From an uncultured Bacteroidales bacterium (lineage in GTDB: Bacteria; Bacteroidota; Bacteroidia; Bacteroidales; Muribaculaceae): a stretch of DNA of 64,000 nucleotides. The notes below the pieces were generated by a model. That model saw only the letters and a list, made by a program, of their open reading frames with translations. It was not told the DNA's origin and did not search any database. Position numbers and translations under genes: made by a program. The stretch spans positions 1-64,000 of the forward strand of contig CACYRK010000011.1 of assembly GCA_902776835.1 (NCBI GenBank), written 5' to 3'. Positions 34,210 to 39,498 of this stretch are shown piece after piece. Within the stretch, counting starts at the first letter, position 1. Each line of letters opens with the position of its first letter.

Positions 34210-35685
34210 ATGGACAATCCATTATTCATCTATAACACCCTCACGCGCCGCAAGGAGCGCTTCGTGCCCCTGAACGAGGGCCGCGTGGGCATGTACGTGT
34301 GCGGTCCCACCGTCTACGGCGACCCGCACCTGGGCCACGCTCGCCCATCAATCACGTTCGACGTGCTGTTCCGATACCTCAAGCACTTGGGCTACAAGGT
34401 GCGCTATGTGCGCAACATCACCGATGTGGGCCATCTGGAGCACGATGCCGACGAGGGCGAGGACAAGATTGCAAAGAAAGCCCGCGTCGAGCAACTCGAG
34501 CCCATGGAGGTGGCGCAATACTATACCAACCGCTACCACAGCGCCATGGAGGCCCTGAACGTGCTGCCACCCAGCATCGAGCCGCACGCCACCGGACACA
34601 TCATCGAGCAGGAAGAACTGGTGAAGGAAATCCTCGCCAACGGCTACGCCTACGAGAGCAACGGCAGCGTGTACTTCGACATCGAGAAGTATAACCGCGA
34701 CCACCACTACGGCGTGCTCAGCGGCCGCAACCTCGACGAGGTGATGAACGCCAGCCGCGAACTCGACGGCGTTGGCGAGAAGCACAACCAGGCCGACTTC
34801 GCCCTGTGGAAGAAGGCACAGCCCGAGCACATCATGCGCTGGCCCTCGCCATGGAGCGACGGCTTCCCCGGCTGGCACTGCGAGTGCACCGCCATGGGAC
34901 GCAAATATCTGGGCAGCCACTTCGACATCCACGGCGGTGGCATGGACCTGGTGTTCCCGCACCACGAGTGCGAGATCGCGCAGGCCGTAGCCAGCCAGGG
35001 CGACGAGATGGTGCACTACTGGATGCACAACAACATGATTACCATCAACGGCAAGAAGATGGGCAAGTCGCTGGGCAACTTCATCACGCTGGAGCAATTC
35101 TTCACCGGCGACCACGAGTTGCTAAGCCAAGCCTACACGGCAATGACGATACGCTTCTTTATTCTTCAGGCACACTATCGCGGCACCGTCGACTTCTCGA
35201 ACGACGCCCTGCAAGCCGCCGAAAAGGCCTACGAGCGCATCATCGACGGCTGGCACCGCCTGCAGGAACTCAAGCCGGCCGACAAGAGCACCGTCGACGT
35301 GGCCGACTACGCCACACGGTGTGCCGAGGCGATGAACGACGACCTGAACACGCCCATGGTGATTGCCACGCTCTTCGACGCTTGCCGGCTCATCAACCAG
35401 GTGAACGACGGCACAGCCAGCATCACCCAGGAGCAGATCGACGAACTAAAGCAGGTGTTCACCACCTATCTCTTCGATGTGCTGGGCGTACGCGATGACT
35501 CGGTGGGCGGCGGAAACGTCGACCTGGAGCCTTATCGCAAAGCCGTGGACTTGCTGCTGGAAATCCGCAAAAACGCCAAGGCCGCCAAGGACTGGGCCAC
35601 CAGCGACCTGATTCGCAACAAGTTGGCCGAGGCAGGCTTTGACGTGAAAGACACCAAAGATGGCTTTGAGTGGAAAGTAAAATGA
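34210..35685 (+). CDS. cysS: Cysteinyl-tRNA synthetase
   Basis: A 491-residue class I synthetase charging tRNA-Cys. It has the zinc/cysteine site [17 protein letters not shown] (Cys31; HLGH at 40-43), the [10 protein letters not shown] and [17 protein letters not shown] zinc motifs, and the KMGKSLGN loop (KMSKS variant). The C-terminal DALR-like helical domain is complete. The following glycosyltransferase gene overlaps its stop by four bases (ATGA). Confidence 0.97.
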
Positions 35686-36689
35686 ACATTGGCACCGGCG
35701 TCACGTCACCATTGGGCGAAAACCCTTTGGTGACGGTCGTCATGCCCGTGTTTAACGTAGCGCCATACTTCGAGCGGTGCATCGGCAGCGTCGTTGGCCA
35801 GACTTATAGCAACCTTCAGATTGTTCTGGTGGATGACGGCAGCGACGACGGCAGCAGCGACTTGTGCGACGAGTGGGCGAGCCGCGACAGCCGCATCGAG
35901 GTCACGCACCTGCCGCAAAACATGGGGCAGGCTCATGCACGCAATGTCGCGTTGCGTGCGGCACGCGGCGAACTGTATGCCTTTGTCGACAGCGACGACT
36001 ACGTGGTGCCGCACTTCATCGCCACACTGCTGCAAGTGCTGCGCAACACCGATGCCGATATCGCCGAGTGCGCCTGGAAGGAGACGCAAGCCAGCCAATT
36101 CACACCGCCCACACCGGCACAAGCCGGCCGGCCGCCACGGGTGACAGTGTTCAGCGGCGACGAGGCAATCATCGACTCGTTCTACCAGCGCACGCTCACC
36201 TGCTCACTGTGTCGCCGCCTCTATCGCGCGCACGTGCTCGCCGGTTACAAGTTTCACGAGGGTAAGATATTTGAGGATCTTGCCGCCGAATATCCCACGT
36301 TGTCGGCTTGCCGGCGCGTGGCATATGTCGACGGCACCTTATATTATTATTTGCATCACACCACAAGCACCATGGGAGCCTTCACCAGCAAGCGCACCGT
36401 GGTTATCGATGTGCTTGAGCAACTCGAGCACGATGTCGCGTCGCAACACCCGTCGCACTTGGGCGCTGTGCGGTCGCGCTTGCTGAGTGCCTACTTCAAT
36501 ATTTTGATGCTGTGCCCCGGCAGCGGCGAGTATCGCGCCATCGTCGAGCGCTGCTGGCAGGGCATCTGTCGTCTGCGATGGGGTTGCCTGTGCGACTCAA
36601 ATGTGCGCGTCAAAAACAAGGCCGCAATCCTTGCCAGCGTGTTTGGGTGCAGAATTTTCCGCATAATCAGCACAGGAAAACGTGTTTAA
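35682..36689 (+). CDS. Family 2 glycosyltransferase
   Basis: A 335-residue GT2 enzyme. [18 protein letters not shown] opens the fold, then VDDGSDDGS and the DxD motif in [10 protein letters not shown]. The C-terminal part is helical and has no clear membrane segment. It is translationally coupled to cysS through an ATGA overlap. It last-gene-ends the lolD-led run. The acceptor is unknown. Confidence 0.87.
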
Positions 36690-36764: not shown

Positions 36765-36795
36765 TTTGCCAATTCAAAAACTTATTGTACCTTTG
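36765..36795 (+). promoter_or_regulatory. Strong promoter of an apparent small RNA
   Basis: TTTG (36765-36768), 19 bases and TACCTTTG (36788-36795): a full match to the Bacteroidetes promoter, with no protein gene for 1.5 kb downstream. Confidence 0.7.
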
Positions 36796-36799
36796 CATT

Positions 36800-36915
36800 G
36801 TCAAAACATCCGTTTTGACTACCATGGACATTTGGGTTTAGTTAAAAGTTTTAGGCTTCAGAAACACTGAAAAACAGTGAGAATAGGCTAGATGTGAATC
36901 TCGCCTATTTTTTTG
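36800..36915 (+). ncRNA. Candidate small RNA of about 110-115 nt
   Basis: Just downstream of a full promoter lie three hairpins. The first is gtcaaaac/gttttgac with a four-base loop (36800-36819). The second is cactg/cagtg (36865-36879). The third is aataggc/gcctatt (36882-36909), which runs into a seven-T tract and so makes a terminator. Possible peptides in this stretch are AT-rich and unlike the neighbouring genes. I do not recognise the RNA as 6S, tmRNA, SRP or RNase P. Function unknown. Confidence 0.6.
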
Positions 36916-36922
36916 TGTTATT

Positions 36923-37114
36923 TTGAACCGCCCCGCCCCGTGCCACACCATCCCCAGCAACCCCTCCGCCCTCAGCCCGAATCGGCCCCATGTGGGCATG
37001 CCCGACGGCGCATACATCTCGCCGTGGGTGATGATGTTTGTCCCCACCGATGTGCCCCAGAACTTTCAAGGACGCCTCGACATGCCACCACACGTCGTGG
37101 TTGTGAACCTTTGA
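36923..37114 (+). pseudogene. Possible gene remnant
   Basis: A 63-codon frame has GC-rich third positions like true genes here, ending MPPHVVVVNL, after a proline-rich start. It has no promoter of its own and begins just behind the small-RNA terminator. It may be the tail of a lost gene. I cannot name the family. Confidence 0.25.
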
Positions 37115-37336: not shown

Positions 37337-37467
37337 GTTCCTCCCCTAACTTAGGGGAGGTGGCCCGAAGGGCCGGAGGAGTGTGTGATAACACACTGGT
37401 TGGCAATTGTTTGTTGTTGACACACGCTCCCGCCCTTCGGGCACCCCCTCTAACCCAGAGGGAAACT
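37337..37467. repeat. Long imperfect inverted-repeat element
   Basis: The left arm (37337-37386) has cctcccctaacttaggggag and the tggcccgaagggccggagga block. The right arm (about 37420-37467) is an inverted diverged copy (gcccttcgggc, ccctctaacccagaggg). Each arm has its own small palindromes. The element is of the MITE or REPIN type and holds no gene. A ctgtccgggcaaac word lies about 100 bases to the left. Confidence 0.7.
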
Positions 37468-37655: not shown

Positions 37656-37900
37656 GTGTGGTCAAAGGGACAGTCCCTTTGACCACACCTAATTATTACC
37701 ATAAACTATATTTAACAAATAGGCATGAACACGCCCAAGATTACCCTGTCCAACCTCAATACTGATAACAGACTAATATATAAACGATTTATACAAATAC
37801 AACCTCAAATAAATAAATTAACTCATTTTATATCTTAAAACGTTTTTGTGAATTAGATATAATATTAGTGTGGTCAAAGGGACTGTCCCTTTGACCACAC
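37656..37900. repeat. Pair of 33-base palindromes flanking 179 AT-rich bases
   Basis: Both 37656-37688 and 37868-37900 read gtgtggtcaaagggac, one central base, then its exact complement. The centre is A in the left copy and T in the right, so they are the same unit in opposite orientations. Between them is AT-rich DNA with no gene. Confidence 0.85.
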
Positions 37901-38076
37901 TTTGGCTAAAAAGGGAAGTATTTTTTGTGTTGGCGGCGGCGCTGGCTTAGAGGTCGCGATTGACGTGGCTGGAAGAACGTGCATGGAGCGAATAGGGGGT
38001 AACTTAGATATTATGTTCGCAACCGGAAAACGCTCATTAGGGTGGACTTTGATTTCGCCTCATTTGTTTTTTGTCA
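37901..38076. other. Gene-free stretch
   Basis: Short open frames occur but lack codon bias, a ribosome site or recognisable motifs. I see nothing else here. Confidence 0.5.
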
Positions 38077-38234
38077 CACCGTCGTAGTGGAGCAGACTGA
38101 CACATCGTCTCAGTGGAGCAGCAGGACACATCGTCGCAGCGGTGCAGCACGGCACACCGTCACAGCGGTGCAGCAGGACACACCGTCGCAGCGGAGCAGA
38201 CCGACACCCACCGTCGCAGCGGTGCAGCAGGACA
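38077..38234. repeat. Six-unit 26-base tandem array
   Basis: The consensus is about cacCGTCGCAGCGGTGCAGCAGGACA, with substitutions in each copy and two extra bases before the last full unit. A seventh, partial unit runs into catcgtgcgccacactgcat, which is also found, slightly changed, at 37183-37202. No codon bias suggests a gene. Confidence 0.85.
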
Positions 38235-38327
38235 CATCGTGCGCCACACTGCATCGCTGAAAATGCCGAAAGTCGAAAAAAAACGAACAAAATTCGAGAT
38301 TATTTCTATGTTTTAAAAATTATTTAT

Positions 38328-38379: not shown

Positions 38380-39498
38380 ATGAAACGGCTACTTGCAACA
38401 ATGGCGATGACACTGATTCTGTGTTTGGGCATCAGTGCTCAAGACAACGATAAAAATGCGATTTTCACCAAGCCGAAGTTCAGCGGATTTGCAATGGCCA
38501 CATATCAGGCCACCTTCCAGGATTCCGGCAACAGCAACTCGTTTGATTTAAGGCTAATAAGGGCATCTTTTGAAGGTCGCATTCTCAACGATTTCTATTA
38601 TAAGATTCAGGGGCAACTCAATGGCAACCAGACCACGCTTGGCAGCAGTCCGCGCCTGGTCGACTACTTTATGGAGTGGCAAAAACTGGATTATCTCAAG
38701 GTGCGCCTCGGGCAATTCAAGCGGCCGTTCACCTTCGAGAATCCGATGAATCCCATCGACCAGGGCTTCATGTCGTATTCGCAACCCGTGTCGAAGTTGG
38801 CGGGATTCAGCGACCGCTGTGGCGAGCATGCCTGCAATGGTCGCGACATCGGCCTGCAGTTGCAGGGCGACCTGCTGAAAAACTCTGCCGGCCGCTACCT
38901 GCTGCACTACCAGGTGGGCGTTTTCAATGGCCAGGGCGTCAACATGAAGGACGTCGATGAGAAGAAAGACATCATTGGCGGCGTATGGGTGATGCCCATC
39001 GCCGGGCTGCGCATTGGCGCTTTCGGCTGGGAAGGGTCGTACGCCCGCAAGAGTGGCGGCGAGATTGTCAGCCTCAACAAGCATCGCTACGCCCTCAGTG
39101 GTGAATACAAGAAGGGCGACCTGCAGTTGCGAGCCGAGTACGTCCACTCGACCGGCCTGGGCTTCGCCACCACTTATCAGAAGTCGGAGAACGCCAGCGA
39201 TGTGACCATCAAGACCTACAGCAAAGACGGCGTGCCGGTGGCCAACGACAAGGCCGACGCCTTCTACGCCCTTGCCATCGTGCCGGTGGTGGCCGACAAA
39301 CTGATGGCCAAGGCCCGCTACGACATCTACCGCCCAACGGCAAGTTCGGTGGCGGCAAAGACCAACTATGAGATAGGATTTAACTATCGTTTCTGCAAAT
39401 ACTTGGAGGTGCAGTCAGAGTACGTGCTCACCAACGACCGCTCGCTCGACAAGCACAACTACAGCAGTGTGTTTTTGCAGGTAAGCATCCGTTACTAA
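38380..39498 (+). CDS. Phosphate-selective porin O/P-like outer-membrane protein
   Basis: A 372-residue barrel protein with signal peptide MKRLLATMAMTLILCLGISA. The mature part shows the OprO/OprP-like pattern FDLRLIRASFEGRILNDFYYKIQGQL, VRLGQFKRPFTFENP, and ends VFLQVSIRY with a terminal aromatic residue. It is 24 bases upstream of dcuB, so the outer-membrane pore and the inner-membrane dicarboxylate carrier are likely co-expressed. That makes C4-dicarboxylates a possible cargo (inference from context). Confidence 0.85.
   Translation: MKRLLATMAMTLILCLGISAQDNDKNAIFTKPKFSGFAMATYQATFQDSGNSNSFDLRLIRASFEGRILNDFYYKIQGQLNGNQTTLGSSPRLVDYFMEWQKLDYLKVRLGQFKRPFTFENPMNPIDQGFMSYSQPVSKLAGFSDRCGEHACNGRDIGLQLQGDLLKNSAGRYLLHYQVGVFNGQGVNMKDVDEKKDIIGGVWVMPIAGLRIGAFGWEGSYARKSGGEIVSLNKHRYALSGEYKKGDLQLRAEYVHSTGLGFATTYQKSENASDVTIKTYSKDGVPVANDKADAFYALAIVPVVADKLMAKARYDIYRPTASSVAAKTNYEIGFNYRFCKYLEVQSEYVLTNDRSLDKHNYSSVFLQVSIRY

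Follow-up and report, generated by a model that had tools for sequence, protein, structure and literature searches.

The window, by which we mean the whole stretch of 64,000 nucleotides that was analysed, carries on its forward strand the cysteinyl-tRNA synthetase gene cysS (34210..35685; Pfam PF01406) and a gene for a GT2 family glycosyltransferase (35670..36689; Pfam PF00535), both identified by synteny as conserved neighbours of an intergenic element that follows on the same strand. The element opens with a Bacteroidota promoter of the sigma-ABfr type, TTTG-N19-TACCTTTG (36765..36795), in which a TTTG box (36765-36768) and a 19-nt spacer precede the TACCTTTG box at -7 (36788-36795). The predicted sRNA transcript (36800..36915) is about 115 nt long from promoter to terminator, its 5' end being placed from the -7 box and its 3' end from a T-run. 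Within it lie a perfect 8-bp 5' hairpin, GTCAAAAC/GTTTTGAC (36800..36819), a conserved region, TACCATGGACATTTGGGTTTAGTTAAAAGTTTTAGGCTTCAGAAACACT (36820..36868), a middle 5-bp hairpin, CACTG-AAAAA-CAGTG (36865..36879), and an intrinsic terminator (36880..36915) comprising a hairpin with a GNRA (GUGA) loop (36880-36911) and the T-run. A 119-nt segment has a predicted minimum free energy of -32.4 kcal/mol (z -3.6), and none of 200 shuffled sequences was equally stable. A tRNA search of the element gave no match. The next confirmed protein gene on this strand, encoding a Porin_O_P protein, is at 38380, about 1.5 kb beyond the terminator. The original prediction had described a full Bacteroidetes promoter, an 8-base 5' hairpin, a 5-base hairpin and a terminator, with no nearby protein that the promoter could serve, and this anatomy proves to be exact.

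The promoter is retained among relatives. In the window it matches the motif at 10 of 10 positions, a score reached by only about 0.5% of shuffled upstream stretches, and a score of at least 9 of 10 is attained by 36 of the 38 distinct copies, compared with about 5% of shuffles. An extended, TAGAAAAGATTTG-like -33 region is also common to the promoters of relatives. A generic scan, with a promoter model of the E. coli type, missed both promoter and terminator, so that the support for these two signals is comparative. Judged by its motif, the element possesses a promoter of its own, as would befit an independently transcribed intergenic sRNA.

At least 35 Muribaculaceae genomes of the rumen type have a relative of the element, downstream of cysS and the GT2 gene and on the same strand; the original prediction had suggested looking for conserved copies near cysS or other loci. 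A BLASTN search of 60 genomes of the same genus found the part from 36820 onwards in about 29, in one place each (E about 1e-5 or better), and the window's own genome likewise holds one copy. When 84,980 species of bacteria and archaea were scanned for its pattern, the core of the element, described below, was located in 35 stretches; the record titles refer to MAGs of uncultured Bacteroidales, Muribaculaceae, Prevotellaceae or Porphyromonadaceae and, where they name a host, it is sheep, goat, roe deer or water buffalo. The bearers belong to a genus that we would guess to be Sodaliphilus-like. A covariance-model search of 297 genomes of the family gave 20 strong matches among 40 genomes of this genus, the window's own included, together with nine matches that form a second group (1e-6 to 5e-9) and two shortened variants. 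Within the window the model has a single match (36765-36930, 107.5 bits), to a copy that is itself a member of the model. On reading, the weak matches in other genera proved to be other stand-alone RNAs, which lie at different loci and have similar terminators, and viral contigs contained no copy of the element.

The genomic position is equally well defined. Of 37 loci, 35 have this GT2 glycosyltransferase gene as the preceding gene in the same orientation, across a predicted gap of 85-162 nt, and in 26 the GT2 gene is itself preceded by cysS. A divergent second clade has its element at the same position, about 1.2 kb past cysS, and because it is located at this same place we regard it as orthologous by position. 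One genome (G015) lacks the glycosyltransferase, yet carries a related element after cysS; in another (G370) the core is deleted and the 5' motif and terminator remain, and in two others (G005 and G016) nothing recognisable was found at the locus. Twenty loci from elsewhere in the family, outside the genus, have neither this GT2 gene nor the motif in an intergenic position in the flank downstream of cysS. The best explanation of this distribution is a putative sRNA family confined to a single genus of Muribaculaceae that is found mainly in the rumen. It is apparently undescribed, in agreement with the original prediction: at the gathering score, Rfam 15 has no match for the window or for 10 homologues, and no relevant match for the divergent copies, while relaxed thresholds returned chance matches to unrelated hairpins alone. 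The open-licence literature yielded no sRNA study of this lineage, Muribaculaceae included.

Covariance had been proposed for three stems, but it is found in the terminator and not in the other two. Double (compensatory) changes affect 11 of the 14 pairs of the terminator stem, which is the sole covarying stem; the covariation score for the whole structure is 0.283, where shuffles score 0.143 and slid controls no more than 0.119. Nearly every copy has a GNRA tetraloop at the apex of the terminator stem (the loop of L055 has five bases instead). The element thus ends in an intrinsic terminator that is conserved in structure, and in 28 of 36 loci this terminator faces a convergent gene, in which case it probably ends both transcripts. 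The 5' hairpin is particular to the window and a few other copies, such as L011 and L012. Over 33 relatives the 5' segment has a mean folding z of -0.23, with only four below -2, which rules out the hairpin as a conserved element and takes away the weight that had been placed on it as a protector of the RNA. The middle 5-bp hairpin is absent from most copies in the alignment of 38 distinct copies.

What matters is a near-invariant core at about 36829-36866, which had gone unnoticed in the original prediction. The strict core, CATTTGGGTTTAG-TTAAAAG-TTTTAGGCTTCAGAACAC, in which about 28 nt are strictly conserved, has a mean pairwise identity of 98.5% across the 38 distinct copies. For the same copies the figure falls to 32% for the 5' part, to 34% for the linker and to 36% for the stretch past the terminator (about 33% for the flanks of the core), and the upstream glycosyltransferase protein averages 61% identity. 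RNAalifold places a 10-pair stem within the core, and the conserved region around it could form a weak, wobble-rich stem, UUUGGGUUUA/UAGGCUUCAGA. The possible core stem varies too little for covariation to be seen; it contains G-U pairs in tandem and shows no double change, and in the divergent clade, whose sequences were read by eye, two of its pairs are retained through one-sided changes. In many copies TTTTAGGCTT recurs ahead of the core (TTTTTAGGCTTGTTTATT). Only this upstream occurrence survives in the shortened variants and in G015, and only the downstream one in the window. The best explanation of the core is that it would be the effector part of the RNA, acting by target pairing or by protein binding, and the best candidate for a seed is the UUUUAGGCUU stretch, which many relatives carry twice. 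We also observed, in two genomes of the second clade (L139 and L140, from G010 and G011), TTTAGGCTTCAA and a terminator with a GTGA loop after another, long gene; this element may be a 3'-UTR sRNA that has the motif in common with the family.

How, then, might such an RNA act? From its sequence, the element appears to be a genuine sRNA gene, with a family confined to one genus, and its conservation, its synteny and the kept promoter and terminator lend strong support to the proposal of a stand-alone small-RNA gene. It is non-coding and conserved by sequence or structure. We think it probable that it specifies an independently transcribed intergenic sRNA of about 115 nt, with its own promoter and terminator, that regulates in trans through the core. 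The promoter would drive the sRNA from its position downstream of cysS and the GT2 gene, the GNRA-capped intrinsic terminator would end it, and the core would regulate in trans with the UUUUAGGCUU stretch as seed, its UAGGC being loosely held by GUUUA through wobble pairs. The sequence, the promoter motif, conservation, synteny and terminator covariation are observed, whereas transcription, trans action, seed and regulation are inferred, the trans-pairing step from the kind of RNA to which the element would belong.

Searches for targets were made at several levels. A 20-nt complement, with up to three mismatches allowed, occurs nowhere but in the element itself, and the 12-nt core complement is not above control outside the sRNA. 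The start regions of SusC/TonB genes (n=19) show no enrichment (z -0.1 to +0.8 relative to shuffled sRNA), and no conserved complement in cis was found in the 8-kb loci or neighbouring genes. A search for AAGCCTAAAA ahead of an ATG gives, in the genome of the window itself, two overlapping matches only, which we take to be the sRNA's own antisense; several of the matches listed for the genus fall within GCCTAAA-like repeats, and we find AAGCCTAAAA before ATG unconvincing as the target of the seed. As a separate observation, AAGCCTAAAA followed by ATG is far commoner than in the reversed control in five genomes of the genus (G006, G009, G035, G033 and G045).

The main rival to a trans-pairing sRNA is an RNA that binds a protein or a ligand, in which the wobble-rich hairpin of the core would capture a protein or metabolite with no pairing to mRNA. 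The absence of complementary targets from our searches favours this, as do the length of the strictly conserved sequence, which at about 28 nt far exceeds a usual seed, the 10-pair stem placed by RNAalifold and the survival of two of the core-stem pairs in the divergent clade. The stem itself, however, has tandem G-U pairs with no double change, and an RRM_1 protein (PF00076, RbpB-like), the one known sRNA-binding RRM type of Bacteroides, was not detected in the window's own genome (97.6% complete), although the control, Bacteroides ihuae, was positive. We consider this explanation unlikely. Rather unlikely, too, is the idea that the core represents a new type of compact protein- or metabolite-binding module, with a sequence fixed by tertiary or protein contacts, serving as a sponge or riboregulator. 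If true, such a module would operate in a lineage without the known sRNA-binding protein of Bacteroides.

The constant position past the glycosyltransferase gene, always on the same strand and with a predicted gap of 85-162 nt, raises a second rival, that the element is the conserved 3' UTR and terminator of a cysS-GT2 transcript, perhaps processed to a 3'-derived sRNA, with the promoter incidental. A conserved terminator that faces a convergent gene at most loci would suit this. Against it, the promoter is kept in both position and sequence, the related element of G015 stands after cysS where there is no glycosyltransferase, and a terminator leaves the invariant core unexplained; we judge a 3' UTR to be quite unlikely. 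A DNA-level element, such as an intergenic protein binding site or a recombination site, would be compatible with invariance at the sequence level and with the repetition of TTTTAGGCTT, but on a single strand it is preceded by a conserved promoter and followed by a conserved terminator, and the element is single-copy, shows no sign of mobility and is absent from viral contigs, making this very improbable. Least credible of all is a gene for a short peptide, ATG-NNC-ATT-TGG-GTT-TAG, the conservation of which had been named as an outcome that would speak against an sRNA. Most copies do have an ATG ahead of the core, yet a one-base deletion shifts the frame in L013, L017, L024 and L026, no ATG is present in L023, L025, L028, L067 and L068, and codon 2 varies with no synonymous pattern; the relatives thus contradict a peptide reading.

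For the trans-acting sRNA that we favour, the closest systems in kind appear to be GibS, FopS and MasB of Bacteroides thetaiotaomicron (PMC11697453, PMC10994844). FopS exists in 14 copies, has the RRM-1 protein RbpB as partner and pairs with SusC start regions (PMC11697453). The window RNA resembles it as one of the short, mostly intergenic Bacteroidales sRNAs with sigma-ABfr promoters (PMC11697453), but is single-copy, in a genome with no detectable RRM_1 protein and no enrichment at SusC starts; copy number, partner and target class all speak against membership of the FopS family. MasB (BTnc201), which targets the BT_1675 mRNA, is likewise a single, narrowly conserved Bacteroidales sRNA of about 100 nt (PMC10994844), although its locus and target belong to Bacteroides. 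GibS is also a stand-alone sRNA, with a non-canonical promoter (PM2) and two seeds, R1 and R2 (PMC11697453); it acts at translation start sites, as the window RNA is assumed to do. MasB and GibS are set apart here by description, not by sequence. Muribaculaceae abound in the guts of ruminants and mice, and a single-copy sRNA with a near-invariant core of 28 nt, in a genome with no detectable RRM protein, offers a handle on sRNAs outside Bacteroides.

Finally, other elements were seen in relatives and near the locus. Elsewhere in the family, other genera carry at several unrelated loci (L127, L128, L129, L131, L132, L135 and L138) a distinct stand-alone RNA-like element, GTGTGTTTTTYATAGTATTAGATTAAGATAAAGGTTTA with a GTTGTGAAAC terminator, and in genus g70 (L126, L130, L133, L136 and L137) an RNA-like element, CATGATGTTAGGTTAGTTAAAAGTATTATGG with a terminator, is found at several loci; neither has an Rfam match among those scanned. 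In the window, positions 37342-37462 form a long imperfect inverted repeat of about 120 nt, to which microRNA models gave weak matches on both strands that are surely due to chance. Two copies of a 29-nt palindrome, GTGGTCAAAGGGACWGTCCCTTTGACCAC, lie 212 bp apart at 37656-37901; the palindrome is present at 16 places in the genome, several of them paired 212-214 bp apart, and these pairs resemble the termini of a small, non-autonomous repeat element. A tandem repeat with a period of 26/52 bp (38075-38240) lies directly upstream of the Porin_O_P gene.
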